From Verrucomicrobiota bacterium (GTDB lineage: Bacteria; Verrucomicrobiota; Verrucomicrobiia; Limisphaerales; UBA9464), in the NCBI GenBank assembly GCA_947454705.1, contig CANGKZ010000006.1, forward strand, positions 62,001-126,000: 64,000 nucleotides of DNA, read 5' to 3'. Positions 5,179 through 24,011 of the stretch are shown here, in pieces. The notes under the pieces are model-generated. The model ran no database searches, was not told the origin of the DNA, and saw nothing but the letters and a program-made list of their open reading frames with translations. How positions within the stretch are numbered: the stretch's first letter is position 1; each line of letters begins with the position of its first letter. A program made the position numbers and the translations under genes.

Positions 5179-5403
5179 GAGGGGTAGGTGGATGTTGTTA
5201 CTGGGGTGAATGTTGTTCAGAGCCATAGACACAACGACGCGGGGTCTGGTTACGTCGAATGCCGTGGAACTTGGGAACTCTCAGGGGCGGGCCAGTCTGC
5301 AGTCCAAGAGAAAACAAGATTTTGCGGGAAATCGCACGCGTGGTAGTCTTGCCAGCCATTCCCGCCACGGCGGCGTGGCGCGAACCGATCTCTCACTTTC
5401 CTG

Positions 5404-6210
5404 ATGACAATCACCCCGGCTTCCACGACCCCGATCTCGCTGAGCGACAAGCAGAGCGAGCCCGACCATCGAAACCTCAAAATTGATAAGGTCGGCGTCC
5501 GTGGTCTCCGTTTTCCAGTCCAAGTGCGGGACAAGGATCGTGACACCCTCCAGAACACGGTGGCGACGGTGGGCCTGTTCGTGGATCTTCCCCGCGAGTT
5601 CAAGGGCACCCACATGAGCCGCTTCGTGGAGGTGTTGAATGCGCATGGATCGGTGATCCACGTGGAGAACATCCCCGATATTCTGAAGGCCATGCAGGCG
5701 CGTCTTCATGCGCAGGATGCGCACCTGGAGATGGAGTTCCCTTTTTTCCTGGTGAAGAAGGCGCCGGTCACCGGCCGGGAGGGCGTGATGGACTACACAG
5801 TCCGTTTCGATGCCACGATGAGCGGCGATGCTTTGGATTTCCTGCTCACGGTGAAGGTCAACGTCACCACGCTTTGCCCTTGTTCCAAGGCGATTGCCCG
5901 CTACGGGGCCCACAATCAGCGGGGAGAAGTGACGGTGGTGGTGCGTTCGGCCACGATTGTCTGGATCGAGGACCTGATCGCCCTGATCGAGGCCTCCGGA
6001 AGCAGCGAGATGTATTCCCTGTTGAAGCGTGAGGATGAGAAGGCCGTGACCGAGCGGGCGTACGAGAATCCGGTGTTTGTGGAGGATCTGGTCCGAAATG
6101 TGGCCCTGAGGCTGAATCAGCGTCCGGAGATCACCTGGTACCGCGTCGAGGCGGAGAACCAGGAGAGCATTCACAATCACAACGCCTACGCCTGTATCGA
6201 AAAAGAGTAG
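5404..6210 (+). CDS. folE2: GTP cyclohydrolase FolE2 (type IB)
   Basis: Converts GTP to dihydroneopterin triphosphate, the first step of folate and pterin synthesis. The protein has 268 residues, normal for the family. The metal-site Cys lies in the conserved TTLCPCSKAI segment, and the C-terminal SIHNHNAYA motif is characteristic of FolE2. A Glu-rich helix (EMEFPFFL) matches the family T-fold. FolE2 is the metal-flexible replacement for zinc-dependent FolE1 and in other bacteria is often controlled by zinc; no zinc operator is evident here. It stands alone, divergent from the glycine-rich gene, with a 225-nt shared upstream region and no Shine-Dalgarno sequence before the ATG. Confidence 0.95.
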   Translation: MTITPASTTPISLSDKQSEPDHRNLKIDKVGVRGLRFPVQVRDKDRDTLQNTVATVGLFVDLPREFKGTHMSRFVEVLNAHGSVIHVENIPDILKAMQARLHAQDAHLEMEFPFFLVKKAPVTGREGVMDYTVRFDATMSGDALDFLLTVKVNVTTLCPCSKAIARYGAHNQRGEVTVVVRSATIVWIEDLIALIEASGSSEMYSLLKREDEKAVTERAYENPVFVEDLVRNVALRLNQRPEITWYRVEAENQESIHNHNAYACIEKE

Positions 6211-6337
6211 TCTGCGGTCCGAATGCGGGAGGTGCCTGCCACGTCCCCTCTGGGCAACAGGGGCATTGCATTGAACGTGATTCCCTGTCTTATCCTCAAT
6301 GCCCGGGGGCTCACCCCGTCCTTGTCTGCTTTGCCGT

Positions 6338-9300: not shown

Positions 9301-9853
9301 CCAGATGCCGAACATCGGAAAGTCACCCCTGGATGCGATCTCCCTGAAATCGGTCGCCACCAACGGCGTGGTGAATGTGGAGGCGGCCAAAGTGTCCAGC
9401 CCGGCGTTCCTCGCCGAGGCGCGAGGGCAGGTGGCCCTCGCGGATCGTTTGCCGCAATCCACGTTGAACCTGCCCATCTCGGTTTCGATTCCCAAAAATG
9501 GTCAGTACGATCGACTGCCGGACTTCCTCACCATGAAGGGAACCCTCGCCAAGCCGGATCCCTCCTACGACGCCCGCGCGATTCCCGCCATCCTCACCCG
9601 TCTCCCAGGCGGCGTGGGCACCGCGGTGAGCTCGGGACTCAACAAGCTGAGCGACACCGTGAACAAGGCGACCAGCGGGCTCCTCAGCCCCGGCACCGCG
9701 GCTCCGGTCAACACCAACGCCCCGGCCGGTGCCAAACCGGCGAATGCACTCGGTGGATTGATCAACTCACTGGGCAACGCGTTGAACGGGGCGGCGACCG
9801 GTGCCAAACCCGCCGCTGCGCCCAGCACCAACGCTCCGGCTCCCAAGAAGTAA
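6338..9853 (+). CDS. AsmA-family envelope protein
   Basis: A very large protein (1171 residues) with one N-terminal transmembrane helix (FLGIVGCALIVAYFVL, near residues 19-35) and a long periplasmic region of beta-strand repeats typical of AsmA/TamB/DUF748 proteins. These are thought to form bridge-like grooves that move lipids between membranes. Features of the group include an early VSDISLSPFSKVELRQLVLK segment and a conserved C-terminal AsmA module (about residues 880-1080, with LNLHGEVS and ALQTPLLRTLTTVLATVL). The last 60 residues are Ala/Pro/Thr/Asn-rich, and a similar linker occurs near residue 810. The ATG at 6338 was preferred over an upstream start because it places the membrane helix close to the N-terminus. 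Confidence 0.85.
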   Translation: MSEIRPLTRRSRKTKLKFLGIVGCALIVAYFVLTSGMFLKAVVLPIAAGKLNADLSVSDISLSPFSKVELRQLVLKPRGAEPLVSIGHARIRYGLFAILSGEIRLDEVLVEGPEFDLVTHPDGTSNLSRWLASLPKSPDKPEGVVTPVPRLRISNVQVTGGRVRVTRNAVKGDAAAMEISGLQVALSRLENGAAGKLVISADGSESRGATNQLRFKASGSLDLALDPSLMPAAALGSIAASVSTATGSFAELADAALALDVDVKSPEIRQVRLSVRRKNDELARLMLSGPYDASRQEARIGYELSGVDRKVLGLVGAIAGIDFGASNLGATGRVDVSPGASKITISTKVAARSVSLRMPAVKGSGLPDRVTPTIEADIDFQSTVNLADSTALVDRANLSVRQNGVRVIEGAMDRPMNLSWGGGRQGFREATYTVSVGGLELDPWKSFQGPNSLSGAVEANLSLTAKNDGQQLALLGTLGMNRAKISGNAPGLDRLSVQGKISGALDRFRVADIDSLVFDVRRDGDPLVRLSASGRFDSETEHIAAQLNTELELPLLLAIAPVQGTQLKSGTLKATAQYRVQPDSKLLTAEIGVLGVTGNLNAVSLTDYQARWDGTIELGTDVIRIKRSAVTLQSGFKPGGSVEMDGEIEARLPWAHAGEFSLQRGKFSARLSNLNEAGLGPWMAASIAPNRLLSILVEGAATAQFDVATESKIQSSVKVSNLRVSDPQSPDGRKPIQLGLAAEATAKGTTFDIQRVLLQLGPTSNAINELLIAGRLDLGGTNAAARSGTISVTSEGLDLTPLASVFGAATGTNAPAAAAKPKPAANSDTAPEVEPAPVTLPFGKFDADVKIGRIFLRDLAVTNLNAHVAIKDGKVTADPFALSVNGAPISAKAALNLGVPGFTYDVAFDATKIPVKPVASSVLSGELVNLHGEVSAGMKLSGAGITGAGLRKNLAGTVSFDAKGLDYQITALQTPLLRTLTTVLATVLQMPNIGKSPLDAISLKSVATNGVVNVEAAKVSSPAFLAEARGQVALADRLPQSTLNLPISVSIPKNGQYDRLPDFLTMKGTLAKPDPSYDARAIPAILTRLPGGVGTAVSSGLNKLSDTVNKATSGLLSPGTAAPVNTNAPAGAKPANALGGLINSLGNALNGAATGAKPAAAPSTNAPAPKK

Positions 9854-9897
9854 CCGCCGCGTTTTTCGCTCTCCGAATCGAACCGCGATCTCACGTC

Positions 9898-11298
9898 ATG
9901 GATTCCATCCTCGCCTACCTCGCCGACAACGAACGCCGCTACGTCGATGACCTGTTCGCCTACGCGCGCATCCCGAGCGTGTCGGCCCAGCCAAAGCATG
10001 CACCGGATTTGAAACGGTGCGCCGACTGGATCGCCGACCGTTGCCGCGCCATCGGCCTGACCACCGAGGTGCATCCGACCGCGAGCTATCCGATCGTCGT
10101 CGCCAAGACGCCGAAGCACGACAAGGACAAGCCCACGTTCCTTGTTTACGGTCACTACGACGTCCAGCCGCCCGAGCCGTTTGAATTGTGGGATTCCCCG
10201 CCGTTCGAACCCGTGCAGAAGGGGCGCGACGTCTTTGCCCGCGGCATCAGCGACAACAAGGGCCAGCACCTCGCCCACCTCAACGCGGTCGAGGCCTGGC
10301 TCAAGTCCGGACAGGAACTGCCCTGCAACATCACCTTCCTGATCGAGGGCGAGGAAGAGGTTGGATCCACCGCGCTCTACGACTTCCTTCCCAAGCACAA
10401 GGCGCTGCTCGCGTGCAATGCGGTGGTGATTTCCGACAACGGCATTCCCACCCTCAAGCATCCTGCGCTCACCTACGCGCTGCGCGGCATCGCCGCGATG
10501 GAAGTGCGGATCGATGGACCGTCCCGCGATCTCCATTCCGGCATCTACGGCGGATCGATCGAGAACCCCGCCATGGCCTTGTGCCAGTTGCTCGGGAAGC
10601 TCCGCGATGCCCGCGGCAAGATCACCATTCCGGGATTCTACGACGAGGTGGTGAAGCTCACCGCCTACGAGCGACGCCAGCTCGCGAAGCTCCCCACGAA
10701 GCCGAATGCGTACCGGAAATTTCTCGGCGTGCCCGAGCTGTTTGGCGAAAAGGGATTCACTGCCGACGAGCAACGGACCGCGCGTCCGACTTTGGAAATC
10801 AACGGCCTCACCAGCGGTTATCAGGGCGATGGCAGCAAGACGATCATCCCGTCCTGGGCGAAGGCGAAGCTGACGCTGCGACTGGTGCCGAACCAGACCC
10901 CGAAGCAGATCATCGCGCAGGTCACGCGGCATCTGAAGAAGCTCTGCCCGCCGACCGTGAAGCTCACCGTCACGCCCGGACATGGCGGAACCCCGTACTT
11001 GGTTTCCCCCACGAGTCAACTCGCGCAGGGCGCCCTTCGCGCTCTCGAAGCAGGCTTTGGCCACGAAGCGATTCTCACGCGCGAAGGGGGAAGCATTCCC
11101 ATCGTGTCGGCGTTCAAGAAGCACCTCGATGCCGACACGCTCCTGCTCGGCATGGCGCTGCCGGACGACAATCCCCATTCGCCGAATGAGAAGTTCTCGC
11201 TCGATGCCTACGCCGCCGGAATGCGCATGAGCGCGCATCTGTGGCCGGAGCTGTCGTGCGCCGCCTTCGCCTGCGATTGCGGATCCGACCACTGCTGA
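9898..11298 (+). CDS. M20 family metallodipeptidase
   Basis: A 466-residue zinc peptidase of the M20/ArgE/DapE/CNDP2-like group. The metal ligands are visible in order: GHYDVQP (His and Asp), a following Asp in GISDNKGQ, the catalytic Glu pair in EGEEEVGS, and a C-terminal His in DDNPHSPNE. A dimerisation domain interrupts the catalytic domain near residues 200-350. Family members hydrolyse dipeptides or deacylate amino acids, and the actual substrate cannot be read from the sequence. The C-terminus ends in a Cys-rich tail (CAAFACDCGSDHC) that is unusual and could bind metal. This is notable because a CobW-type metal GTPase starts 40 nt downstream. Confidence 0.9.
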   Translation: MDSILAYLADNERRYVDDLFAYARIPSVSAQPKHAPDLKRCADWIADRCRAIGLTTEVHPTASYPIVVAKTPKHDKDKPTFLVYGHYDVQPPEPFELWDSPPFEPVQKGRDVFARGISDNKGQHLAHLNAVEAWLKSGQELPCNITFLIEGEEEVGSTALYDFLPKHKALLACNAVVISDNGIPTLKHPALTYALRGIAAMEVRIDGPSRDLHSGIYGGSIENPAMALCQLLGKLRDARGKITIPGFYDEVVKLTAYERRQLAKLPTKPNAYRKFLGVPELFGEKGFTADEQRTARPTLEINGLTSGYQGDGSKTIIPSWAKAKLTLRLVPNQTPKQIIAQVTRHLKKLCPPTVKLTVTPGHGGTPYLVSPTSQLAQGALRALEAGFGHEAILTREGGSIPIVSAFKKHLDADTLLLGMALPDDNPHSPNEKFSLDAYAAGMRMSAHLWPELSCAAFACDCGSDHC

Positions 11299-11338
11299 TC
11301 CCGGATCCCGCATCGGCAGTTTTCGATTCCCGATTTTC

Positions 11339-12316
11339 GTGGAACGTCTTCCCGTCATTTTGCTGACCGGCTTTCTCGGCGCGGGAAAGACCACCCTGTT
11401 GCTGCGCTGGTTGTCGGAAGCCCCGGCCACCGGGCGTCGACTCGGCGTGATCATGAACGAGTTCGGAGCCGACAGCGTGGACAGCCAGTTGATCGGGCGT
11501 CCGGGACTGGCGCTGGAGCAGGTGAGCGGGGGATGCGTCTGCTGCGCTCCGGACAACGATTTGGGAAATGCCGTCGCCCGCATGGTGGCCGAAGGTCGAT
11601 GCGATGATCTCGTCCTGGAGACCAGCGGACTCGCGGATCCGGACAACGTCATCGATGTCCTCACCGATGCGGAACTGCTGCCCCAAGTGCGATTGCAGGC
11701 CGTGGTGACGCTGCTCGATGCCCGGTGGCACGGGGATCCGGCAATGGATCCGGCAGAGCGAATCCTCGCGCGACGCCAGGTGCAGTTCGCCCATGTGGTT
11801 TGTCTTTCCAAGTGCGACCTGGTTCCTGAGGCGAGGGTGCTCGCGGTGGAGGCGGAGGTTCGCGCCATGAATCCATCGGCGCGCATCGTGAGGCTTCCAT
11901 TCGGATTGCCGGATCTGGCGGAAATCCTCAAAGGCGTTTCTGCCGAAGTGACTCTTGACCCGCAACTCCAGAGCGACGCAACGCCCGCCGGGGAGCATCT
12001 GCATTCGCGCTACCACAGTCTCTCGTGGCGCGTCCCGGTGGCGTTGGATCGATCCCGGTTCGAGGCTTTTCTCTCGGGGTTAAATCCGCGCGAAGTGGTC
12101 CGGGCGAAGGGATTCGTTCGATTTCAGCGACAGCCGGAGCAGTTGTTCGTGTTCCAGTCGGTGTTTGGCCACGCCTTCATCGAAGAATTCCGCGCGCGGG
12201 CCACGCCCGATCCGGTGATCGTTTTGATCGGTCCCAATCTGGATTCCGCCACGCACCGCGAGCGTCTGCGAGCCCTCGCGTTCGGCGATTCAGTCCGCAA
12301 AGTCGCGCTCGGTTAA
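11339..12316 (+). CDS. CobW/COG0523-type metal-chaperone GTPase
   Basis: A 325-residue G3E-family GTPase. The N-terminus has the Walker A motif TGFLGAGKTT at residues 10-19 and the family CxCC metal-binding motif in GGCVCC near residue 65. The guanine-specificity motif appears as SKCD near residue 158. The C-terminal CobW_C domain starts near residue 220 (SWRVPVALDRSRFEAFL). Family members deliver zinc, cobalt or other metals to client proteins. The GTG start at 11339 is preferred because it places the beta1-P-loop in register and no in-frame ATG precedes it. Adjacent to the M20 metallopeptidase with 40 nt between them, so that enzyme is a reasonable candidate client. Confidence 0.88.
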   Translation: MERLPVILLTGFLGAGKTTLLLRWLSEAPATGRRLGVIMNEFGADSVDSQLIGRPGLALEQVSGGCVCCAPDNDLGNAVARMVAEGRCDDLVLETSGLADPDNVIDVLTDAELLPQVRLQAVVTLLDARWHGDPAMDPAERILARRQVQFAHVVCLSKCDLVPEARVLAVEAEVRAMNPSARIVRLPFGLPDLAEILKGVSAEVTLDPQLQSDATPAGEHLHSRYHSLSWRVPVALDRSRFEAFLSGLNPREVVRAKGFVRFQRQPEQLFVFQSVFGHAFIEEFRARATPDPVIVLIGPNLDSATHRERLRALAFGDSVRKVALG

Positions 12317-12346
12317 GCGCCTTCCGCAAGCAGGAAGCCGGACCCT

Positions 12347-12908
12347 TTGGAGTGCGGTGGCAGAGCGCAGCGTCGACACCGCTTTCGAAACCGTCCGTGG
12401 TGTCGCACCGACCGGTGGCCTCGGTCTTCGTGCCGATTCAGCAGGCGTAAAGTTTCGAAAAGCGGCGACCCAAAAGAGTGGGGGACGTGGCAGCGTCGGG
12501 ATCGCGATTGAATGGGGCGCGGGTGGAACCGCGCCCTCCACGGTGGGCTGCGGCCACGGCAAAACTCGAAACGAGAGCGGATGCGCGCGATTTTGGAGTG
12601 CGGTGGCAAAGCGGAGCGTCGACACCGCTTTCGAGATCGGGCGTGGTGAAAAACCGACCGGCGGCCTCGGTCTTCGTGCCGATTCAGCAGGCGTAAAGTT
12701 TCGAAAAGGGGCGACCCAAGCGAGTGGGTGACGTGGCGGCGTCGGGATCGCGATTGAATGGGGCGCGGGTGGAACCGCGCCCTCCACGGTGGGCTGCGGC
12801 CACGGCAAAACTAGAAACGAGAGCGAATGCGCGCGATTTTGGAGTGCGGTGGCAAAGCGCAGCGTCGACACCGCTTTCGAGATCGCCCGTCGTGTCGCAC
12901 CGACCGGT
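12347..12908 (+). repeat. 246-bp tandem repeat, about 2.3 copies, with internal hairpins
   Basis: The segment beginning TTGGAGTGCGGTGGCA recurs at 12347, 12593 and 12839, exactly 246 nt apart. The third copy breaks off near 12908. Each unit contains two palindromic parts. One is a hairpin whose arms are GCGGTG and CACCGC. The other, present in the two complete copies at 12514 and 12760, is a GGGCGCGGGTGGAACC... motif with arms GGGCGCGG and CCGCGCCC. Related copies occur at 57411, 57551 (reverse), 61542 (reverse) and 61708. Short open frames here are copies of each other and have no coding character. The remainder of 12317-13064 holds nothing else recognisable. Confidence 0.9.
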
Positions 12909-13064
12909 CCCATCGCCTCAACGCAAGAGAGCGCTTCCCCCTTTGCCTTTTACCTTTATCCTTTTGCCTTCCGGCCCCGGGCCTCCGGCCGGATTTCCTC
13001 TTATAGATTCGCTTGTTCTCGCGCCGGGCTAGGACATGCTTGCCCCGGAACTCTTTCTCCCCCC

Positions 13065-13973
13065 GTGAACGCCTTATTGCCGCCTGAGTTGCTGCGTCGG
13101 TTGGAGCAGTTGCAACTGCTGGCGGCCCGCCGTGCCAAGAGCTCGCTGAAGGGCGAACGCCGCAGTCGTGCCCGCGGCTTGAGCGTCGAGTTTGCCGACC
13201 ACCGCAATTACGTCCTCGGCGACGATCTCCGGTATCTCGACTGGAATCTCTTCGGCCGGCTCGACCGCCTGTTCCTCAAGCTTTACGAGGAGGAACGCGA
13301 ACTCCCGCTCCGGATCTTTCTCGATTGCAGCGAGAGCATGAATTTTGGATCCCCGTCGAAGTTCGACTTCGCACGTCGGGTGGCGGCGTCGGTGGGGTAT
13401 GTGGCGTTGTGCGGATTCGATCGCGTGTCGATCCAGTGCTTTCCCCAGCCCCCCGCCACTCTTCCCCAGGCCGAGGTGGTGGCGCGCGGCGCGTTGCGAT
13501 CCGTCCGGGGCAAGACGTCGTCGATGACCTTCTTCAATGCCCTGTCGCAGCTCAGCGCCGGCGGGGCGGCCGACTTCAACGAATCCCTCCGTCGTGGTGC
13601 CATGGAAGCCAAGCAAACCGGGGCGGCGCTGGTGTTGTCCGACTTCCTGGATCCCGCCGGATACGAAGCGGGCCTCACCGCGCTCATCGGACGCGGATTC
13701 CAGGTCACCGCCATTCAGATCCTTGCTCCCGAGGAAGTGGATCCCACCACGTTTGGCGATCTTCGCCTGATCGACTCCGAATCCGGCGCGGAGACCGAAG
13801 TCACCTTTGGCAAATACCGCATGGCGGCGTATCGGCAAACGGTGGCCAATTACCTCGAACGGCTTCGTGAGTACTGCACCGGCCGCGGCATCCGCTTCGC
13901 CACCGTGACCAGCAACACCGATCTCGGCGACCTCCTCCTCAAGCAGCTCCGGGCTGCGGAGGTGTGGGTGTGA
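13065..13973 (+). CDS. DUF58 (MoxR-associated) protein
   Basis: A 302-residue soluble protein of the DUF58 family, which has a VWA-like fold and usually partners a MoxR AAA+ ATPase. The signature block lies near residues 20-65: RSRARGLSVEFADHRNYVLGD, then LRYLDWNLFGRLDRLFLK. The degenerate MIDAS motif follows as DCSESM. The GTG at 13065 was chosen because any longer frame extends into the upstream repeat. It opens a run of overlapping genes and shares a 4-nt GTGA overlap with the next one. No MoxR gene is nearby, although DUF58, BatA-like and VWA genes commonly travel with one. Confidence 0.88.
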   Translation: MNALLPPELLRRLEQLQLLAARRAKSSLKGERRSRARGLSVEFADHRNYVLGDDLRYLDWNLFGRLDRLFLKLYEEERELPLRIFLDCSESMNFGSPSKFDFARRVAASVGYVALCGFDRVSIQCFPQPPATLPQAEVVARGALRSVRGKTSSMTFFNALSQLSAGGAADFNESLRRGAMEAKQTGAALVLSDFLDPAGYEAGLTALIGRGFQVTAIQILAPEEVDPTTFGDLRLIDSESGAETEVTFGKYRMAAYRQTVANYLERLREYCTGRGIRFATVTSNTDLGDLLLKQLRAAEVWV

Positions 13974-15241
13974 ATTTGAACGACGTGACCTCCCAATCTT
14001 CGAATGATTCCGCGCGCCGGTCGCGACGCGAATTCCTCCACGACTCCGCACGCTGGGCAGGGGCCCTTTCGCTCGGAGCTGCTGGAGTCGGCCGCCTCGT
14101 CGGCGCCGAGGAATATCAACACCCGTTCGCCAACGGCACCCGTCCGCTGGTGAAGTACCCGCAGAAGCGTCCGCTCATCCGGTTGACCACGCGTCCGCCG
14201 CAGTTGGAAACGCCGATGTCGGTGTTCCACGAGAGCCTGCTCACGCCCAACGACGCCTTCTTCGTTCGATACCATCTCTCGCAATCCCCGCCGCGGCGCG
14301 AATTGCTCGAGCCCGGGCAATTCCGCGTGTCCATCGCGGGCAAGGTGCAGACGCCGGTTTCCTTTTCTGTCGAGGAATTGAAGGCGCGGTTTGAGCACGC
14401 CGAAGTCGTCGCGGTGAACCAATGCGCCGGCAACGGTCGCGGATTCTTCCAGCCGCGCGTTGCCGGTGGTCAGCTCGGCAACGGGGCCATGGGATGCGCC
14501 CGGTGGCGCGGCGTTCGCCTAGCCGATGTCCTCAAGGCCGCCGCTCCGCAGGCGGGCGCGCGTCAGGTGTTGTTCAACGGCCTCGACGCTCCGTTCGTTC
14601 CTCAGACGCCCGATTTCATCAAGGCCATCGAACTCGACCACGCCCTCGATCCCGAGTTGCTGCTCGCCTTCGAAATGAACGGCGAGCCGCTCCCATGGAT
14701 GAACGGATTCCCGCTGCGCCTCGTGGTGCCCGGTCATTACGGCACCTACTGGGTGAAGCATGTTCACGACATCAAGGTGGTGGACGACGAATTCAAGGGC
14801 TTCTGGATGACCCCGGGCTACCGCATTCCCGATGAGCCCTGCGCGGCCATCGAACCGGGAACCACGCCGAAGAAGACCGTGCCGATCACCCGCTTCAACG
14901 TGCGCTCCTTCATCACCGGGTTCGAATCCGGTCAGACCGTTCCCGCAGGACGCGACCTCGCGCTTCGTGGCATCGCATTTGACGGCGGTGCGGGCATCAC
15001 GGAAGTGCTGGTGTCGTCCGACGGCGGACGCACCTGGTCCGCAGCCGAGCTTTCCCCGCAGGTGGGTCGATACGCCTTCCGCGAATGGACCACCTCCATC
15101 CGCGTGAAATCTGCCGGTCCGCTGACCCTGATGTGCAAGGCCACCAACCGGCTGGGTGAATCTCAACCCATGAAGCCGCTGTGGAACCCGTCCGGTTACA
15201 TGCGCAATTGCGTCGAATCCCTTTCCCTCAACGCGGCATGA
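13970..15241 (+). CDS. SorA-like molybdenum sulfite dehydrogenase subunit
   Basis: A molybdopterin oxidoreductase of the sulfite oxidase family, about 423 residues. The N-terminus has a twin-arginine-like signal (RRSRREFLHD, then a hydrophobic stretch), so the enzyme is probably exported folded with its cofactor. The Mo-ligating Cys lies in NQCAGNGRGFF near residue 152. The SUOX core spans about 110-290 (with PLPWMNGFPLRLVVPGHYG), and the dimerisation domain follows (about 300-415; EVLVSSDGGRTW). The GTG at 13970 overlaps the DUF58 stop as GTGA. The gene immediately downstream encodes a c-type cytochrome matching SorB, so the pair resembles the SorAB sulfite:cytochrome c oxidoreductase. The substrate need not be sulfite. 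Confidence 0.85.
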   Translation: MNLNDVTSQSSNDSARRSRREFLHDSARWAGALSLGAAGVGRLVGAEEYQHPFANGTRPLVKYPQKRPLIRLTTRPPQLETPMSVFHESLLTPNDAFFVRYHLSQSPPRRELLEPGQFRVSIAGKVQTPVSFSVEELKARFEHAEVVAVNQCAGNGRGFFQPRVAGGQLGNGAMGCARWRGVRLADVLKAAAPQAGARQVLFNGLDAPFVPQTPDFIKAIELDHALDPELLLAFEMNGEPLPWMNGFPLRLVVPGHYGTYWVKHVHDIKVVDDEFKGFWMTPGYRIPDEPCAAIEPGTTPKKTVPITRFNVRSFITGFESGQTVPAGRDLALRGIAFDGGAGITEVLVSSDGGRTWSAAELSPQVGRYAFREWTTSIRVKSAGPLTLMCKATNRLGESQPMKPLWNPSGYMRNCVESLSLNAA

Positions 15242-15597
15242 ATCCCGTCACGTTTACCAAAATTGGGGCGGGTGCCGTTTGCTCCGCTGCCGCGGTCGTC
15301 CTGGCTCTCGCGGGACAGCCGGTTGAACCCGCGCGCAACGCCTTCGCCGGCGAAGCGTGGCAGCTCCCCGTGGAAGCCCCGGCGGCCCGTCCGGTCGCCG
15401 CCCCGCTGCAGTCGAACTGCCTGCTGTGCCACTCCATGGACTACGTGACCACGCAGCCGCCGCTCACGCGTCCGCAGTGGACTGCCATCGTGGAAAAGAT
15501 GCGCGGCAAGTTCGGAGCCGTGATTCCGACGAATCAGGTTGCGGGGCTTGTGGACGCCCTGTTGATTGCGCCCGGGCCCGGAGGTCCTCCCAAGTAA
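15238..15597 (+). CDS. SorB-like monoheme cytochrome c
   Basis: A 119-residue exported cytochrome. A signal peptide (GAVCSAAAVVLALAG) is followed by a single heme motif, CLLCH, in the sequence SNCLLCHSMDYV, and by QPPLTRPQWTAIVEKMRGKFGA. This fits the SorB-type subunit, which pairs with a SorA catalytic subunit and passes electrons to cytochrome c. The Met of KMRGKFGA is a plausible sixth heme ligand. The start overlaps the SorA-like stop as ATGA (15238-15241), so the two subunits are translationally coupled. Confidence 0.85.
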   Translation: MNPVTFTKIGAGAVCSAAAVVLALAGQPVEPARNAFAGEAWQLPVEAPAARPVAAPLQSNCLLCHSMDYVTTQPPLTRPQWTAIVEKMRGKFGAVIPTNQVAGLVDALLIAPGPGGPPK

Positions 15598-15615: not shown

Positions 15616-17469
15616 ATGAGTTTTCTCGCCCCCATCGCGTTTTTCTTCGCCGCCACGCTTCCCGTGGTGGTGGTCTTTTACCTGTTGAAGCGGAAGCGCG
15701 TGGTGCGTCTCGTGCCCTCCACGGTGCTCTGGCAGAAGTTCCTCGCGGAGAATCAGGCCAGCGCCCCGTTTCAAAAACTGCGGCGGAACTGGCTGCTGCT
15801 GCTCCAGCTCCTGCTGATGGCGTTGATCGTCCTCGCCCTCGCGCGTCCGTACTTCTCCGGCAAGACCAACGAGGCCGCGCTGCAGGTGGTGGTGCTCGAT
15901 GCCAGCGCCTCGATGCAATCCACCGACGTGTCGCCCAGCCGGTTCGATCGGGCACGGTCGGAGGTTCTGGCGATGGTCGACGGCCTTCACGGCGGCAACC
16001 AACAGATGCTCGTGCTGGTGGCCGGCGCCGCTGCCGAGGTGCGGCAATCCGCCACTTCAGAAAAGTCCGCGCTCCGACGCGCCATACAGGCCGCCGAAGT
16101 GACCGATTCCACCACGCGTCTCACCGAGGCCCTGCGGGTCGCGGAGACCCTCACCCGCGATAAACCCGGTTCGGAAATTCATCTGTTTTCCGACGGGGCA
16201 GGGGTGGATCTGAGCGAGTTTGAGAACAAGGATCTCCGTCTGGTTTATCACCCGGTTGGTGTGCGATCGAAGAACCTCGGAGTCGTGTCGCTCGATGTGA
16301 AGGCCAACCCGGAGGACCCCGCCCGCCGCGCCGTCTTTGCGAGCGTGGTCAACACTTCGGGGGAATCTTTCGACACCACGCTGGAGTTGCTCTTCGACGG
16401 TCAGGTCGTGGAATCCAAGGCCATCACCGTGGGGCCGACCAATTCGACCCCGGTCGTGTTTTCCGCCGCGCAAGCGCGCAAGGGCATCTTCACGGTTCGG
16501 CTCGGCCTCACCGACGACCTGGCCGCGGACAACCAGGCCAGCGTGCCGAGCGCCTTGCCGGAACCGATTCGCGTGATCCTGGTGACCCGTGGCAATCGCT
16601 TCCTCGAGCGCGCCGTCGCCGCCTCGGGTCCGAATGTGGAGGTGTCCACCACCACCGATCTCGCCGAGCCGCTGCCCAAGGCCGATGTGTTCGTGCTCGA
16701 CGACGTGGTCCCCGGTGTGTGGCCCACGGGCAATGTCCTCGCCATCCACACCGGCAACACCAATTGGTTCCCCGCCGGCATGGGCCAAATGGAGGCCCCC
16801 CAGGTGGTGGACTGGAAGAACACGCATCCGCTCCTCCGCTTTGTCAGCCTCGACAACGTCCAGATCGCATCGAGCCTCGCCGTGAAGACCCCCACGTGGG
16901 CCGTGTCGCTGGTGGATTCTCCGTCCGCCCCGCTCGTGCTCGCCGGTGACTTTGGGCGTCAGCGCGTGGTGTGGATCGGATTTGATACACTCCAGAGCAC
17001 CTGGCCGCTGCGCGTGAGTTTTCCGATCTTCATCGCCAACGCCATGGAGTGGTTGAACCCGGTCACCGCAAAAACGGAGCTCTTCCAGATCCACGCCGGC
17101 GAAGCCTTCCGGATGCCGCTCGGCGAGGGACTGGCCCAGATCAAAGAGGCCACCGTGGTCTCCCCGGGCAACCGCACGCGGACCATTCCGCTCGGGACCG
17201 AGGCGCGTGAATTCGTGTTTGGCGAGACCCCGCGTCAGGGCGTGTACCAAGTTCGATTCGGCACCAACACCCTCGATTTCTGCGCCAACCTGCTCGATGC
17301 GCGGGAGAGCAACCTGACCCCGCAGCGCGCGCTGAGCCTGGGCCGGCGCGGCTCGATTTCCGGAACCAAATCGCAGGTGGCCAATCTCGAATACTGGCGC
17401 GCCTTTGCCCTGGCCGGGCTCGCGATCCTGATGCTCGAGTGGTGGTGGTTTCACCGGAGGACCGCTTGA
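15616..17469 (+). CDS. BatA-like VWA membrane protein
   Basis: A 617-residue protein. The N-terminal BatA domain has two membrane helices (FLAPIAFFFAATLPVVVVFYLL and LLLLQLLLMALIVLALARPYF). A von Willebrand A domain follows from about residue 90, with the MIDAS motif DASASM. A long beta-rich region follows, and a final hydrophobic segment near the C-terminus (AFALAGLAILMLEWWWF) anchors the tail. Members of the group usually sit with MoxR and DUF58 proteins in Bat or related clusters of unclear, probably chaperone-like, function. It begins 18 nt after the cytochrome gene. Confidence 0.85.
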   Translation: MSFLAPIAFFFAATLPVVVVFYLLKRKRVVRLVPSTVLWQKFLAENQASAPFQKLRRNWLLLLQLLLMALIVLALARPYFSGKTNEAALQVVVLDASASMQSTDVSPSRFDRARSEVLAMVDGLHGGNQQMLVLVAGAAAEVRQSATSEKSALRRAIQAAEVTDSTTRLTEALRVAETLTRDKPGSEIHLFSDGAGVDLSEFENKDLRLVYHPVGVRSKNLGVVSLDVKANPEDPARRAVFASVVNTSGESFDTTLELLFDGQVVESKAITVGPTNSTPVVFSAAQARKGIFTVRLGLTDDLAADNQASVPSALPEPIRVILVTRGNRFLERAVAASGPNVEVSTTTDLAEPLPKADVFVLDDVVPGVWPTGNVLAIHTGNTNWFPAGMGQMEAPQVVDWKNTHPLLRFVSLDNVQIASSLAVKTPTWAVSLVDSPSAPLVLAGDFGRQRVVWIGFDTLQSTWPLRVSFPIFIANAMEWLNPVTAKTELFQIHAGEAFRMPLGEGLAQIKEATVVSPGNRTRTIPLGTEAREFVFGETPRQGVYQVRFGTNTLDFCANLLDARESNLTPQRALSLGRRGSISGTKSQVANLEYWRAFALAGLAILMLEWWWFHRRTA

Positions 17470-17702
17470 ATTTCCATTCCCACGCCTTCACCGCGACCGC
17501 CCCGTTCTGGTACCGGGTGGTGGTTGCCTTGTGGTATCTCGCGGGTGCGGGAATGATCGGATTTTTCCTCGCGGGATTGTTCGCGGGCCAGATGCAGAGC
17601 ACCACGTTTCGACGCATCTGCGGCTGGGGTTGGGGCGTCTCGACCCTGTTGTTCCTGGTGCCCATGGTGGTCAACTCGTGCAACTACGATCCGAGACTAT
17701 GA
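17466..17702 (+). CDS. Small membrane protein of unknown function
   Basis: A 78-residue protein with two likely transmembrane helices (FWYRVVVALWYLAGAGMIGFFL and WGVSTLLFLVPMVV) joined by a short polar loop. I do not recognise it. The TTG at 17466 overlaps the stop of the BatA-like gene (TTGA), matching the pattern of coupled starts on both sides; an ATG at 17439 inside the previous gene is an alternative. Its end overlaps the next start as ATGA. The placement suggests an operon membrane subunit, for example a partner of the flanking VWA proteins or of the transporter. Confidence 0.65.
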   Translation: MNFHSHAFTATAPFWYRVVVALWYLAGAGMIGFFLAGLFAGQMQSTTFRRICGWGWGVSTLLFLVPMVVNSCNYDPRL

Positions 17703-18676
17703 GCCGCCCCGGGTCGTCTTCATGCCTTTCGATCCGCGCTCAAACCGGATTCAGTCGGTGGCTTTGCGGAGTCGGCGCGTTGCTCGTTGCGTTGTTTGGA
17801 TTCGGAAGCCAGCCCATGCGCGCGGATTCCACGCGGGTGGTGCACGTGTACTGCGCGCAGGACCAGGTGTACGCCGAGCCCATTTTTGAGGCGTTTCATC
17901 GGTCCACGGGCATCCGCGTGCTTCCGGTGTTCGACAGCGAGGCGGTCAAGACGGTCGGACTCGCCAATCGGTTGATCGCCGAGCGACGCCACCCGGTGGC
18001 CGATGTGTACTGGGGCAACGAGGAACTCCGCGCGCGTCAGCTCGCGGCGATGGTGATCTTTCGCGAGACCAATGGCTGGACCGGATTTGGTCAACGCTCC
18101 CGCCGGATCGTTTACAACCCGCAACGTCTCGCATCGGCCCGCGTCCCCAAATCGGTTTCCGAACTCACCAATTCCGCGTGGAACGGACGTCTGTCCCTGG
18201 CCTTTCCCGGATTCGGCAGTACTGCGACGCACTTTCTCGCGCTGCGTCAGGCCTGGGGCGAGGCGCGATGGCAGACTTGGTGTCGCGCCCTGGCTGCGAA
18301 CAAGCCGTACCTGGAGGAGGGGAATTCCCAAGTGGTACGGCGTGTGGCCCGCGGTGAGGCGTGGATTGGTTTGACCGATTCCGACGACATCGCCGCCGGC
18401 ATCCGCGAGGGTCTGAGCGTGGCCATGGCGACCTCGGTGGACGAATTGATGGTGCTGCCCAACACCGTCGCCGTGGTGCGGGAATGCCCGCACGAGGAAG
18501 CTGCGCAGGCGTTGTACATGTACCTTCAGCAGCGTGCGGTGACCGGGAAGTTGGTCGAGGTCGGTGCGTTGGAATCGACCCTGCCTGACGGACAATTGCT
18601 GCAGCCCGACTGGCCCGCGATCCTGCGGGATCTGGATCGGGGCGCGTCGCAGATTCGGAGGATTTTCCGGCCGTGA
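17699..18676 (+). CDS. Iron(III)-type ABC transporter solute-binding protein
   Basis: A 325-residue exported binding protein of the extracellular solute-binding family 1 / FbpA type. An N-terminal hydrophobic segment (WLCGVGALLVALFGFG) is followed by a plausible cleavage site after MRA. The mature part begins VVHVYCAQDQVYAEPIFEAFHRS, the classic first strand and helix. Internal matches to the group are the DVYWGNEE, PKSVSELTNSAWNGR and ARGEAWIGLTDSDD segments. FbpA proteins bind ferric iron or other small anions; the ligand here is not determined. The start overlaps the preceding stop as ATGA, and the permease follows with a GTGA overlap. Confidence 0.82.
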   Translation: MSRPGSSSCLSIRAQTGFSRWLCGVGALLVALFGFGSQPMRADSTRVVHVYCAQDQVYAEPIFEAFHRSTGIRVLPVFDSEAVKTVGLANRLIAERRHPVADVYWGNEELRARQLAAMVIFRETNGWTGFGQRSRRIVYNPQRLASARVPKSVSELTNSAWNGRLSLAFPGFGSTATHFLALRQAWGEARWQTWCRALAANKPYLEEGNSQVVRRVARGEAWIGLTDSDDIAAGIREGLSVAMATSVDELMVLPNTVAVVRECPHEEAAQALYMYLQQRAVTGKLVEVGALESTLPDGQLLQPDWPAILRDLDRGASQIRRIFRP

Positions 18677-21132
18677 ATCCGACGCTTCTCTTCAATTCCG
18701 TCGGCGTGGCGCTCGTGGCCACGGTGCTGTCGCTCGTGGCTGGAGTGGCCGCGGCGCTGGTGGCCACCGCGTATCCTGCCTGGCGTCGGACGGTGCTGGT
18801 GTCGGGCGTGTTGTGTCTCGCGCTGCCACCCTTCCTGCCGGCCAATGCGTGGCTCGAGGTCACCGCGGGGCCACGGGCCAGCGGCGCACCGGAATGGGTC
18901 GCCGTCTGGACGCTTCCCTTCGTGGCCTTCGTGCTGGCTTCCGGACTCTGGCCCATCTCGTTGTTTTTGACGTTGTCGGGATGGAGCCGTCTGCAACCGG
19001 GCCACCTCGAAGCGGCCGTGGGAGGTGCAGGATGGAATGCCCTCCGTCGCGTGATGCTCCCCGGAATCGCGACGGAACTCCGGGTTGCCGCCACGATCAC
19101 GCTTGCCCTTTCGCTGGCCAATTTCACGGTGCCCACGCTGTTCCAGGTCCGCGTGTTCACGGAGGAGTTTTGGATCCGGTTCAACACGCAGTTCGATCTT
19201 CCCGGCGCAATCGCCGGATCTTGGCCGCTGCTGTTGTTGCCGCCGCTGGTGCTGGTGTGGATCGCGCGGCATCCGGTGTCGTGGATCCGACAGACTGCTT
19301 CCCTCGACTCGCGCGTGGTGCGATCAGTGATCGGAGCCTGGGGCACCGCCGCGTTGGTTTTTACGGCGATCTGGATTGCGCTTTCGCTGCTGTTTCCTCT
19401 GGTTCAGTTGGCCACCTCGCCGCGCACTTGGTCGGAACTCTCCGGCGCGGTTGCAGCGGGCGGAAGTGCGCTGCGTCAGTCGGTGATGACCGCCGCCGCA
19501 GCGGCCACGGCGATTGTGGGCGTGGGACTTCTCCTCACCCGATCGCATCTGCATCGGCAGCCGGTGGTAAAATCGGTCCGCGTGTTGGGCTGGATTTTGT
19601 TTCTGCTGCCCGGGGTGTTTGAAGGCGTGCTGCTGTTGCATGCGTTCACCCTGGATTGGCTGCGTCCGCTGTCGCTCGGCGCGGGGGGAATCATTCTCGC
19701 TGTGACCTTGCGATACGCCGTGCCGGCGTGGCTGATTTTGTCGGAAGCCGCTCGCACGCTCGATCGGGATCAGACCGATGCCGCGCGCTCCAGCGGGGCT
19801 TCCGCGTGGACGGTGTTTCGATCGGTCGAGTGGCGTCAGATGCGCATTCCCGTCTTTGCGGCGTGGTACGCCGTGTACCTGCTGGCGTTGTGGGATGTCG
19901 AGACCGTGGTGCTGATCCAACCGCCCGGCGGTGAGACCCTCGCGCTGCGGGTCTTCAATCTCCTCCACTACGGCCATGGCACGCAGGTGAATGCGCTGTG
20001 CGTGGTGCTGCTGGGGCTGGCCTTGTTGCCGGGCGTGTTGGTGGGACTCGCGGGTTCGCTGCGTCGATGGACTGGCGGGAATGGCCGACTGGGAATGAGC
20101 GGTTGGATCGGGCTTCTGGCGGTGGGATTGATGGCCGGGGGATGCGGCGAATCTTCCACCGGATCCGGGGCGCTGGAGTCCGACGCGCGGGCAGGACTTG
20201 GACCTGAACAGCCGCTGAAGTCGCAGACCTTCCGTGCGGTGCAGGTGCTGGGATCGCGCGGAGTCGCTCCGGGGCAGTTCAACAAGCCCCGGTCGCTCGT
20301 GTGTGATCGGGATGACAATTTGTTCGTGGCCGACATGACCGGTCGGATCCAGAAGTTCGATGCGCAGGGCCGCTGGGTGTTGCAGTGGCAGATGCCGCAA
20401 ACCGATCTCGGCAAACCCAAGGGCATGTGCCTCGACCCCGAAGGCCACGTGGTGGTGGTGGAACCGCATTATCAGCGGGTGAATGTGTTTTCCACCGAGG
20501 GAAAACTCATTCGCCAATGGGGCGTGAAGGGCACCGCGCCTGGGGAATTGATCCTGCCGCGATCGATTGTGTGTGCGCCGGATGGACGTTTTTTTCTGAC
20601 CGAGTACACGGTGGTGGATCGTCTCCAGCGGTTTTCGGCCGCGGGAAAGTTCGAACGCACCTGGGGCGCGCCCGGCGGGGAGCCGGGGCGGTTCAATCGG
20701 GCCGAGGGCATTTGCATGGATGCAGCCGGACGCCTGTTGGTGGCCGATTCGTGCAATCACCGCATTCAGGTATTTACCGCCGATGGGGATTTCGTCCGGA
20801 CCTACGGAACCGCCGGCGCCGAGCCGGGCAAATTGAGTTACCCGTACGACATCCGGGTGGACGCCCAGGGACGCCAGTTCATCTGTGAATTCGGGAATTC
20901 CCGGGTGAGTGTGTTTGGGGCGAAGGATGAATTAATCGAAGTGGTGGGCGGCGCCGGCGCGGGCCCCGGGCAGTTTGCCAATCCGTGGGCGATTGCCTTT
21001 GATTCGCACGGCAGCCTGTACGTGGCGGATTCGCAGAATCACCGGGTGCAAAAACTGATCGCCCGCGGGGCGGTGGCTGGGCGAGGCTTGGCCGCGACCC
21101 CCGCTGTCGCTGCATCGGGGCCAAGGTCATGA
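18673..21132 (+). CDS. ABC permease fused in frame to a lipoprotein-like NHL beta-propeller
   Basis: One uninterrupted frame of 819 residues. Residues 1-470 form a two-lobed FbpB-type permease with about 12 membrane helices. It has two cytoplasmic EAA-type loops: EAAVGGAGWNALRRVMLPG near residue 116, and a second beginning DAARSSGASAWTVFRSVE near residue 371. Without a stop codon the frame continues into MSGWIGLLAVGLMAGGCGES, which looks like a lipoprotein signal with Cys about residue 491. Six NHL repeats follow (about 510-800), for example VADSCNHRIQVF. A true fusion would place the propeller outside the membrane beside the channel. The alternative is a second start at 20095 giving a separate lipoprotein. 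No ATPase gene is adjacent. The GTG start overlaps the binding-protein stop. Confidence 0.8.
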   Translation: MNPTLLFNSVGVALVATVLSLVAGVAAALVATAYPAWRRTVLVSGVLCLALPPFLPANAWLEVTAGPRASGAPEWVAVWTLPFVAFVLASGLWPISLFLTLSGWSRLQPGHLEAAVGGAGWNALRRVMLPGIATELRVAATITLALSLANFTVPTLFQVRVFTEEFWIRFNTQFDLPGAIAGSWPLLLLPPLVLVWIARHPVSWIRQTASLDSRVVRSVIGAWGTAALVFTAIWIALSLLFPLVQLATSPRTWSELSGAVAAGGSALRQSVMTAAAAATAIVGVGLLLTRSHLHRQPVVKSVRVLGWILFLLPGVFEGVLLLHAFTLDWLRPLSLGAGGIILAVTLRYAVPAWLILSEAARTLDRDQTDAARSSGASAWTVFRSVEWRQMRIPVFAAWYAVYLLALWDVETVVLIQPPGGETLALRVFNLLHYGHGTQVNALCVVLLGLALLPGVLVGLAGSLRRWTGGNGRLGMSGWIGLLAVGLMAGGCGESSTGSGALESDARAGLGPEQPLKSQTFRAVQVLGSRGVAPGQFNKPRSLVCDRDDNLFVADMTGRIQKFDAQGRWVLQWQMPQTDLGKPKGMCLDPEGHVVVVEPHYQRVNVFSTEGKLIRQWGVKGTAPGELILPRSIVCAPDGRFFLTEYTVVDRLQRFSAAGKFERTWGAPGGEPGRFNRAEGICMDAAGRLLVADSCNHRIQVFTADGDFVRTYGTAGAEPGKLSYPYDIRVDAQGRQFICEFGNSRVSVFGAKDELIEVVGGAGAGPGQFANPWAIAFDSHGSLYVADSQNHRVQKLIARGAVAGRGLAATPAVAASGPRS

Positions 21133-24011
21133 GCTTCCAATTCACCCATCCTGGATGGCTGTTCCTCCTGATTCCGGTGGGACTCTGGACGCTCCTGCTT
21201 GCCTGGAAGTCGGACACCTCGCTGGTGGCGTGGCGTCGGACCACCTCCACCGCGCTTCGCGTGCTGGTCGTGCTGCTGCTCGTGCTGGGCATCGCCGGCA
21301 TTCAATGGAAGAAGCCGCAGGAGGGCATGAACGCGTTTTTCCTGCTCGATCGTTCCGACTCCATTCCATCGGCCCAACAGGAACAGGCGCGCGACTGGGC
21401 CAACCGCTGGGCCAAGGGGAAGGAACCTCAGGACAAGGCGGGGTTCCTCGTTTTTGGTACGGATGCCGCGCTCGAGACCACCGCGACCTCGGTGGCCGAG
21501 GCGGAGAAGATCCAGGCCGTGGTGGGCGGGGAGCGGACCGATCTGGCCGGGGCGGTGCGCCTGGGCACGGCCGCGTTTCCGGAATCGGGACAAAAGCGGA
21601 TGGTGCTGCTTTCCGACGGCAATGAGAACGTGGGCGATGCCATGGCCGCCTTGCTCGCCGCCAAGCCGCTCGGTGTGACGCTTGATGTCGTGCCCCTCGG
21701 AGTCACTCGCGGGGAGGATGTGGCGGTGCAGAAGATCGGACTGCCTTCGAACATCAAAAAGGGGCAGACCTTCGACGCCAAAATTTTCGCCACCTCGGAC
21801 CGTCCCCGCGACGCGCGGGTGAGGTTGTATCGAAACGACCAATTGCTCGGGGAGCAGAAGGTTCACCTCGATGCCGGCAAGAACCTGTTCACCTTTCCGC
21901 AAACCCTGCCCGAGGCCGGTTTCTACGGCTATCAGGTGCAGGTGGAGGCCGATGGCGACACGGTGCCGCAAAACAACAAGGCCGCAGGATTCGTCAATGT
22001 TCGCGGGGATCCGCGGGTGCTGCTGCTGTCGTCGGATCCCGCACTCGATCGCACGCTCGCCGCCGCCTTGCGAAGCGGGAAGCTGGATGTCCAACTTGCC
22101 GGACTCGACCGCACTCCGTCCACGCTGGCGGAGATGCAGAGCTACGATGAGATCCTGCTGAGCAACGTGTCGGCCGGCGACCTGGGACGCGACCGCATGG
22201 CGCTGCTGCAAAGCGCGGTGCGTGATTTCGGAATTGGTCTTGTGGTGGTCGGCGGTGACCAGGCCTTTGGTGCCGGTGGGTACCGCGGTACGGCGTTGGA
22301 AGAAGCGCTGCCGGTGGACATGGAATTGAGCTCCAAAAAAGTGCTGCCCAAGGGCGCGCTCGCGCTGGTGATGCACGGCATGGAATTCGCCAACGGCAAT
22401 CAGGTGGCGCGCGAGATCGGCGTGGCCGCGCTCGATGCGCTGGGGCCGCAGGATGAGCTCGGGGTGTGGCTGTGGGATGGCACGGAGCACGCGTTGTTCG
22501 ACCTTCAGGCGGTGGGCGACAAGAAGCGGCTCGCCGGACTGATCATGGGAATGAACCAGGGCGACCTCCCGAATTTCCAGGGCCTGATGAGCCAGGCCAA
22601 CGCGTCGCTGCAGAAATCGTCGGCGAACCTGAAACACATGATCGTGTTCAGCGACGGGGATCCGAATGCGCCGACGGCTGCGCTGCTGCAGGACATCGTG
22701 TCACACAAGATCACCATCAGCACGGTGATGATCGGCGGACACGTCCAGCCGACCACCATGATCCAGATGGCGGAGCAGGGGAAGGGACGCTTCTACGACG
22801 TGCGTTCGGCCGCCGAGCTGCCGCAGATTTTCATCAAGGAAGCGTCGGTGATTCTGAAGTCCGCCATCATCGAGGAGCCCTTCATCCCGCAGCTCGCCGC
22901 ATCGAGCGAATTGATCCGTGGCATCGGCGGCGGCGAGATGCCCCAGCTCCAGGGGTACGTCGCGACCACCAGCCGTCCGCGAGCGGAAACCCCGCTGGTG
23001 ACCGACAAGGGCGATCCGTTGCTCGCGCACTGGCAGTACGGACTCGGCCGTTCCGTGGCGTTCACCAGCGATGCCCGCGGGAAGTGGGGGCGGGACTGGA
23101 TTGGCTGGAGCCGCTATCAGCAGTTTTGGTCCCAGACCGCCAACTGGGCCCTGCGTCGCGTGGACACGGCGGAGTACAACACCGAGGTGTCGGTGGACAA
23201 CGGGCAGGGCGTGCTCTCGGTCGAGGCGCTCGATCCGCAGGGCAACTTCCGCAACTTCCTCAATCTTCAGGCCGCCGTGGTGAGCCCGCGCGGGCAGCGC
23301 GTGAATGTGGCCCTCGAGCAAACCGGTCCGGGACGCTACGAGGCGAAATTCCCCACGCGGGAAGTCGGCGCGTATCTGCTCAACTTGATGGAATTCCGCG
23401 ATGGCAAGCCGGTGGGATCCCAAGTGGTGGGCGCCAGTGTGAACTATTCGCCGGAGTTCTCCGCATCGGAGCCCAACCTGAACCTGCTGCGCCGTCTCGC
23501 CGAGGCCGGGGGCGGCCGGATTCTCGATCCGCTGGTGGACAATCCGTTCAAGTTGAACCGGATCAAAACGTATCAGCCCCGGGATTTGTGGGAGTCGCTG
23601 CTCAAGCTCTTCTTGATCCTGTTCGTGCTGGATGTGGCCGTGCGTCGCGTGGACATCGACCGGGAGGAATGGCGCAAGGCGTGGATCAAGGTCCGGGCCG
23701 CGTTTGGATTGGGGGATGTGCGTCGTGCCGTGGCCGGTCAGGAGTCGCTGGGTGCGCTGTTGCAGCGACGCGACCAGGTTCGCGAGACCCGTCCCCAATC
23801 CCAACAGGCCCCGGTGGCCGACGAGCGCCTGTTCCAGCCGCGCAACGCCCCGGTGGTGTCCGCGGCACCGGTTCCATCTTCCGGCGAAAGTTCATCGCAG
23901 GCTGCAACTCCTCCGCCGGCCCCAGCGGACGACGCATCCGCTGGCGGCGGTGAAAAATCCGGCACCACGAGCCGGCTTTTGGAGGCAAAACGGCGTGCGC
24001 GCCGGCAATGA
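21129..24011 (+). CDS. Large double-VWA membrane protein
   Basis: A 960-residue protein with two N-terminal membrane helices (about residues 10-27 and 42-59). A first VWA domain begins at [16 protein letters not shown], and a CARDB-like beta domain lies around 200-290. A glutamine-amidotransferase-like segment (about 295-410, with [14 protein letters not shown]) is followed by a second VWA-like domain (about 470-590, [12 protein letters not shown]). A C-terminal membrane segment ([15 protein letters not shown], near 825) leads into a Gln/Ala/Pro-rich disordered tail. Such proteins usually accompany MoxR, DUF58 and BatA proteins. It overlaps the permease-NHL gene by 4 nt (ATGA) and is the last member of the block. 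Confidence 0.85.

Follow-up and report, generated by a model that had tools for sequence, protein, structure and literature searches.

An ABC permease and a lipoprotein-type NHL propeller in one reading frame across an order of Verrucomicrobiota, with a candidate internal lipobox at the seam

The fused reading frame and its parts

Within a 64,000-nucleotide stretch of DNA from a Verrucomicrobiota bacterium of the order Limisphaerales (GenBank assembly GCA_947454705.1, contig CANGKZ010000006.1, positions 62,001 to 126,000; hereafter the window), an ATP-binding cassette (ABC) transporter permease, an internal signal-like segment and an NHL propeller lie in a single open reading frame (ORF) of 819 amino acids, as judged from the ORF itself, Pfam matches, the loci of relatives, their alignment and a structural model. 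The frame (18673–21132; this and all other window features are on the forward strand) begins with GTG, runs for 819 codons to a TGA stop and is open throughout, in agreement with an earlier note on this DNA, which had reported no stop between the permease and a lipoprotein-type signal with its cysteine at about residue 491. That note offered two explanations: a true fusion, with possible processing of an internal signal-like helix, or dual initiation, with a separate lipoprotein starting at 20095. We find the fused frame across the order, with a cysteine kept at the seam.

The permease part (residues 1–462, 18673–20058) contains both EAA-type coupling loops and matches BPD_transp_1 in Pfam (PF00528; 31.6 bits against a cut-off of 26.4, residues 284–416). 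It is followed by a variable linker (residues 463–490, 20059–20142), in which the alignment and the hydropathy/charge profile reveal a basic stretch and then a short hydrophobic segment, by the codon of a lipobox-type cysteine, Cys491 (20143–20145), directly after G490, and by a six-bladed NHL propeller (residues 514–798, 20212–21066; PF01436, 96.6 bits). Structure prediction of the full frame, proposed in the earlier note as a check, returned both folds and a junction of low confidence. The AlphaFold2 model, for which the input alignment had 19 rows (the window protein and 18 fused relatives, or 18 of the 21 proteins collected), has a mean predicted local distance difference test score (pLDDT) of 86.2 and a predicted template modelling score of 0.85; the permease part is helical, a helix at 475–488 is of low confidence, and the stretch 488–505 has a pLDDT below 50. 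Strands from 520 to 797 were counted as six propeller blades, which together with the Pfam matches bears out the six NHL repeats reported earlier. The modelled propeller compares with NHL domains such as 6xg7 at a Z score of 40.2.

What type of permease is this? Residues 1–460 of the model align to chain positions 53–512 of FbpB from Thermus thermophilus (9j4r_A; Z 32.2, 436 residues, 20% identity). The match stops where the extra C-terminal part starts, and the beginning of FbpB is without counterpart in the fused protein. Among 75 permeases, EAA loop 1 has E113 in 72, G120 in 67 and P130 in all 75, and loop 2 has G375 in 71 and P388 in 72, the window protein having R at position 388. By fold and EAA loops, then, the permease part is that of an FbpB-type (type I) ABC importer.

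The same comparison bears on topology. Since the start of FbpB lacks a counterpart, and from the hydropathy/charge profile of 66 fused rows, we infer about 11 membrane helices ahead of the signal-like segment rather than the 12 proposed earlier. Membrane topology commonly follows the positive-inside rule, and the mean net charge of those rows is +3.7 at residues 456–482 and −2.3 after the extra segment. Because two helices come after the second EAA loop and a basic stretch follows them, the signal-like segment should start in the cytoplasm; because the charge is basic before the segment and acidic after it, it should end, and the propeller should lie, outside the inner membrane. As to the side of the membrane on which the propeller would lie, this agrees with the earlier note.

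Conservation of the fusion

Of the 320 genomes searched within the order, 158 hold relatives of the fused protein at E ≤ 1e-55, and 162 have none at that limit. We read the DNA of 132 loci (loci, genomes, families and genera are given here by L, G, f and g codes). Both domains were present in 111, of which 36 were repeats of the same place, leaving 75 distinct pairs; 4 permease-only and 17 NHL-only loci were omitted before counting, and these include family f2, where permease and propeller of G035 lie on different contigs, and contig ends. Permease and NHL propeller share one frame without a stop in 70 of the 75 pairs, or 70 of the 73 inside the order, and the 70 fused genes come from 25 or more of the coded families. 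In the remaining five pairs the genes are unfused: two of these pairs belong to genus g3 (L073 and L074), one to G149 (L075), and two to family f63, which lies outside the order (L081 and L082). Measured from a conserved permease motif, the propeller stands at 27 different distances, between 51 and 229 residues, and the frame is kept in every case. Some search matches had been flagged with an internal stop; in the flagged rows that we read (L008, L018, L027, L109, L117, L121 and L123) no stop interrupts the frame up to the end of the propeller match, and in L023, L029 and L068 it is open up to a contig end inside the propeller.

These counts confirm that the permease–propeller fusion is real and not an assembly error. 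A frameshift or lost stop could in principle have joined two neighbouring genes in this assembly, and the seam does contain, in another frame, an ATGA of the kind seen at ordinary gene junctions; such an error is ruled out by 70 separate fused loci, among them loci in the single-contig genomes G093 (L109) and G065 (L110), and we give it next to no credence. Of the two explanations offered earlier, it is the true fusion that the counts bear out. Orthologs with a stop between the domains, which had been named as evidence against a fusion, do exist (L073 and L074 of g3, G149, G035 of f2, and f63), and they leave the fusion here standing because in them the domains are separate genes, the propeller with a lipoprotein-type signal of its own.

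How unusual the arrangement is for its permease family depends on where one looks. Outside the order the earlier description as unusual fits, the matches listed at E ≤ 1e-40 spanning the propeller alone (9 genomes of a class sample of 384 and 6 of a phylum sample of 288); inside the order the fused form dominates the pairs read. A plasmid collection gave 40 matching records, none of them with a place that covers 80% of the query.

Two side observations belong here. L091 (G168) and L090 (G133) have much longer linkers, with 666 and 321 nucleotides between the matched parts, and are still in frame with the cysteine kept. In G003, a 95% complete genome of the same genus, there is no match at E ≤ 1e-55 and there are weak propeller matches only; the fused gene appears to be missing.

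The seam: processing or a second start

A cysteine stands shortly ahead of the propeller in 70 of 70 fused genes, preceded at −1 by Gly (65), Ser (3) or Ala (2). All 70 have a net positive charge at −30 to −13 from this cysteine, and the uncharged run ahead of it has a median of 14 residues (range 1–28). Between residues 450 and 520, the alignment of 19 rows is invariant at G490 and C491 and nowhere else. Coding constraint is weakest in the linker; over six close pairs, the ratio of nonsynonymous to synonymous differences (pN/pS) is 0.71 in the linker, 0.24 in the permease and 0.16 in the propeller. Seven unfused permeases, inspected by eye, end without the extra hydrophobic segment. Because glycine and cysteine are invariant although the linker around them is the least constrained part, the pattern points to a kept lipoprotein signal, here of type II and some 460–490 residues inside the frame instead of at a protein N-terminus, with no conserved start ahead of it. 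The window's genome encodes Lgt, LspA and LolA. We therefore infer that Cys491 receives a lipid and that signal peptidase II probably cleaves the chain before it, and processing of the propeller at the internal signal-like helix is plausible from the sequence pattern. In E. coli the residue at +2 governs whether a lipoprotein is retained in the inner membrane; with Asp in 2 of 70 fused genes and Ser in 34 of 70, the +2 residues would not retain the lipoprotein there, if a rule that may not hold in Verrucomicrobia applies.

Is the signal instead reached from a second start? An in-frame ATG does exist 16 codons before Cys491 (20095–20097), as the earlier note had said, but it has no Shine–Dalgarno (SD) match of 4 or more, and it is absent from L002, L003, L004 and L023, the four other genus members with a readable seam; L003 has no ATG, GTG or TTG at all within 30 codons ahead of its cysteine. 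Across the order, start codons and SD matches were compared with random points in the same fused genes. In the stretch from −14 to −30 codons, 19 of 70 fused genes lack all three start codons (ATG, GTG and TTG), 18 of 70 contain an ATG (26%, background 21%), and SD matches of at least 4 and at least 5 occur in 14 of 70 (20%, background 22%) and 2 of 70 (3%, background 4%), respectively; widening the stretch to −40 brings ATG to 26 of 70. The separate propeller genes were also read. In g3, the split propeller gene starts from an ATG of its own, which follows AAGGAGG and overlaps the end of the permease gene as ATGA, and among 11 split NHL genes an ATG lies at −14 to −40 in seven and a GTG with an SD match in two. 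An internal start at 20095 as a general mechanism is disfavoured by the unshared ATG and the background level of starts and SD matches, and the same two findings count against the dual initiation proposed in the earlier note.

Several observations weigh against processing of a single chain at an internal lipobox. The strict lipobox, given as [LV][ASTVI][GAS]C (PMC8048626), is present in only 26 of 70 fused genes, and the window's AGGC does not fit it, being weaker than the consensus. Among the 11 split NHL genes, the strict form was recognised by eye in 8, several of these being close relatives of one another. The start signals are imperfect yardsticks too. At −14 to −40, two of the split NHL genes (L078 and L081) are without an ATG and without any start backed by an SD match, SD matches of at least 4 and at least 5 are found at 26 and 18 of 69 permease starts, respectively, so that 43 of 69 have no match of 4 or more, and in a few fused genes a candidate internal start is accompanied by a fair SD match (for example an ATG in L009 and a GTG in L125).

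The −3 position of the lipobox, relaxed in many fused sequences, speaks for a chain that is not cut at all. The segment would then be a stable last transmembrane helix, and the propeller would stay tethered and dock on the periplasmic mouth of the permease or on the binding protein, with a Cys491 that may be lipidated without cleavage or may simply lie at an interface; a conserved frame is also expected of any functional fusion. Yet a plain membrane helix needs no cysteine, and a cysteine is found in 70 of 70 genes. The uncharged run is also short for such a helix, the confidence of the model is low across the junction, and the split propeller of g3 is a stand-alone protein with a lipobox. We consider an uncut fusion a distinctly weaker candidate, at roughly one chance in four. 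The candidate starts of some relatives and the in-frame ATG of the window speak for a separate lipoprotein started inside the frame, besides or instead of the fusion, and since many true permease starts lack an SD match as well, the absence of one decides little by itself. More weight falls on the missing start codons and on the frame: it is kept in 70 of 70 genes, although dual initiation would not require this. We regard this alternative as improbable.

Gene neighbourhood

The fused ORF lies in a set of genes with the conserved order DUF58, BatA, binding protein, permease::NHL and VWA/GATase1-like, in part with MoxR upstream. Directly ahead of it is a solute-binding protein gene (17699–18676, from Pfam and the ORF; the start at 17699 and a Sec-type signal are placed by eye, and the longest frame is 17531–18676), the stop of which overlaps the GTG of the fused ORF as GTGA at 18673. 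All NCBIfam matches of the binding protein are far below their cut-offs. Directly behind the fused ORF, a VWA/GATase1-like protein (21129–24011, Pfam) starts with an ATG that overlaps the fused stop as ATGA at 21129. Further upstream are a BatA/VWA membrane protein (15616–17469) and a DUF58 protein (12789–13973), both members of the conserved neighbourhood by Pfam, with an Oxidored_molyb gene (13964–15241, Pfam) and a small ORF (15181–15597) between them in the window. Over 75 neighbourhood stretches, some of which are the same contig twice, clusters named from the Pfam matches of their members occur as follows: VWA in 59, BatA in 50, binding protein in 43, DUF58 in 27 and MoxR in 22. No MoxR was called in the window.

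Between BatA and the binding protein there is an ORF of 87 amino acids (17439–17702) without a Pfam match, the stop of which overlaps the putative binding-protein start ATG 17699 as ATGA; relatives of this ORF occur in 8 of 132 loci, its own included. A repeat is also present in the window, at 12588, 12834 and 57414 (+); its core is GCGCGATTTTGGAGTGCGGTGGCA, and one of its frames translates to RFWSAVA(E/K)RSVDTAFE. There are 13 exact copies in the genome, and a search of the 132 loci for the peptide pattern gave none. The repeat overlaps the called start of the DUF58 gene, and because the first codons lie in it, the true start of that gene is probably further in.

The ATPase gene and the origin of the fusion

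Nine loci were read outside the order (L081–L089), and in four of them (L081, L082, L083 and L086) an ABC ATPase gene stands between the permease gene and a separate NHL lipoprotein gene. The order in f63 (L081 and L082) is binding protein, permease, ABC ATPase of 198–200 amino acids and NHL lipoprotein; in L083 it is permease, ATPase, NHL and VWA. L086, from the same phylum (4834–14066, reverse strand), has the fullest set: binding protein, permease, ABC ATPase, NHL lipoprotein, VWA, MoxR and DUF58. Its permease has no Pfam match, and a profile comparison with A1 gave a probability of 94.6% over the second half; its MoxR matches the bpMoxR Pfam model above the cut-off, but more weakly than the general AAA_3 model. 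L088 and L089 have weaker ATPase matches (about 32–35% identity) just upstream of the NHL gene, and no such ATPase was seen in L084, L085 or L087.

With the two f63 proteins as reference ATPases (68% identical to each other), a search of the 132 loci, the flanks of which differ in length, gave matches at E ≤ 1e-8 in L081, L082, L083, L086, L088 and L089 only, and in none of the fused loci; no cognate ATPase was found alongside the fused permease. Elsewhere in the genomes of the order, with 33 or fewer candidates scored per genome, 61 of 97 have matches at E ≤ 1e-35, with 41–49% identity and in open frames of 263–704 amino acids, and we read these, from their sequences, as probably other ABC ATPases. 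Since its EAA loops are kept, the permease probably still engages an ATPase, one that comes from elsewhere.

How did the fusion arise? A tree of the NHL part, made with a quick method from 81 rows (68 fused and 13 split), has six state changes, two of them forced by well-supported branches. Its deep order is without resolution and its long branches are placed unsurely, and a single origin of the fusion is not shown by these 81 rows. The split of g3 falls inside a supported set of 22 rows, 20 of them fused, which supports a secondary split there. In the simplest history, the ATPase gene would have been lost as its neighbours were joined, with later splits in g3 and perhaps in f2 and G149.

Interpretation and known systems

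Our preferred explanation, which we hold with moderate confidence from sequence patterns, is one polypeptide with a periplasmic propeller that is lipidated at Cys491 and probably cut there, giving a permease and a lipoprotein propeller from one ORF. The permease part would enter the membrane as an FbpB-type importer subunit whose end remains in the cytoplasm; the short hydrophobic segment would act as an internal type II signal that carries the propeller across the inner membrane; Lgt would attach diacylglycerol to Cys491, and signal peptidase II would probably cut before it. That the fused frame keeps the lipid-attachment cysteine at its seam suggests one chain that is trimmed apart afterwards, so that permease and lipid-anchored propeller would be made in equal amounts. 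The fusion would have arisen in this order together with loss of the intervening ABC ATPase gene, and with its own ATPase gene lost, the transporter part would have to borrow one. Close to the binding protein, the propeller may serve to sense or to hold a ligand or a partner, and the VWA, DUF58 and MoxR genes suggest a role in assembly or as chaperones. For the broader proposal, an order-wide polyprotein with an internal lipobox about 490 residues in, after about 11 helices and used by Lgt and signal peptidase II, with the ATPase gene lost and permease and propeller at 1:1, we see the balance as even.

Comparison with known systems places the parts. FbpBC of Thermus thermophilus (PDB 9j4r) is alike in its fold over residues 1–460, in its two EAA-type loops and in a binding-protein gene directly upstream; unlike it, the fused loci lack the FbpB start and a reference-type ATPase gene and have a C-terminal signal-like segment with a propeller. 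The stand-alone NHL lipoproteins of L081, L082 and L086 share the propeller family and a lipobox-like N-terminus with the fused ORF, and in part its neighbours (VWA in L081 and L086, MoxR and DUF58 in L086), but they are separate genes with an ABC ATPase gene ahead. A polytopic protein, an internal signal and a periplasmic domain are reportedly also combined in the fbcH cytochrome b/c1 polyprotein of Bradyrhizobium, which is said to be cut by type I signal peptidase, whereas the site here is lipobox-like and of type II. The ABC importers OpuA and GlnPQ have substrate-binding domains on the permease chain and so share an extracytoplasmic domain in that position; here, in contrast, it is a propeller that is attached, the binding protein is a separate gene, and a lipobox-type cysteine marks the seam. 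MoxR-vWA-beta-propeller ternary conflict systems (PMC7159879) likewise have MoxR, vWA and propeller in one cluster, with bpMoxR matching the MoxR of L086, but the propeller there is fused to the vWA protein, whereas the one described here is of lipoprotein type and accompanies an ABC importer. By Pfam, the window's two VWA proteins contain no propeller, with VWA-type and BatA or GATase1_like domains only.

The component parts are thus already known, and the new element would be the candidate lipobox inside a polytopic fusion. According to PMC8048626, the signals on which Lgt and signal peptidase II act are N-terminal. Among the titles and abstracts listed in searches of open-licence papers, none deals with an internal lipobox in a polytopic fusion. 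We know of no described case. If the proposal is true, a conserved internal site after a polytopic protein would widen the substrate range of Lgt and signal peptidase II, and such sites would escape predictors limited to N-termini. Here one gene set occurs in fused, separate and secondarily split forms, a natural experiment that also includes an importer without a neighbouring ATPase gene in which the coupling loops are kept.

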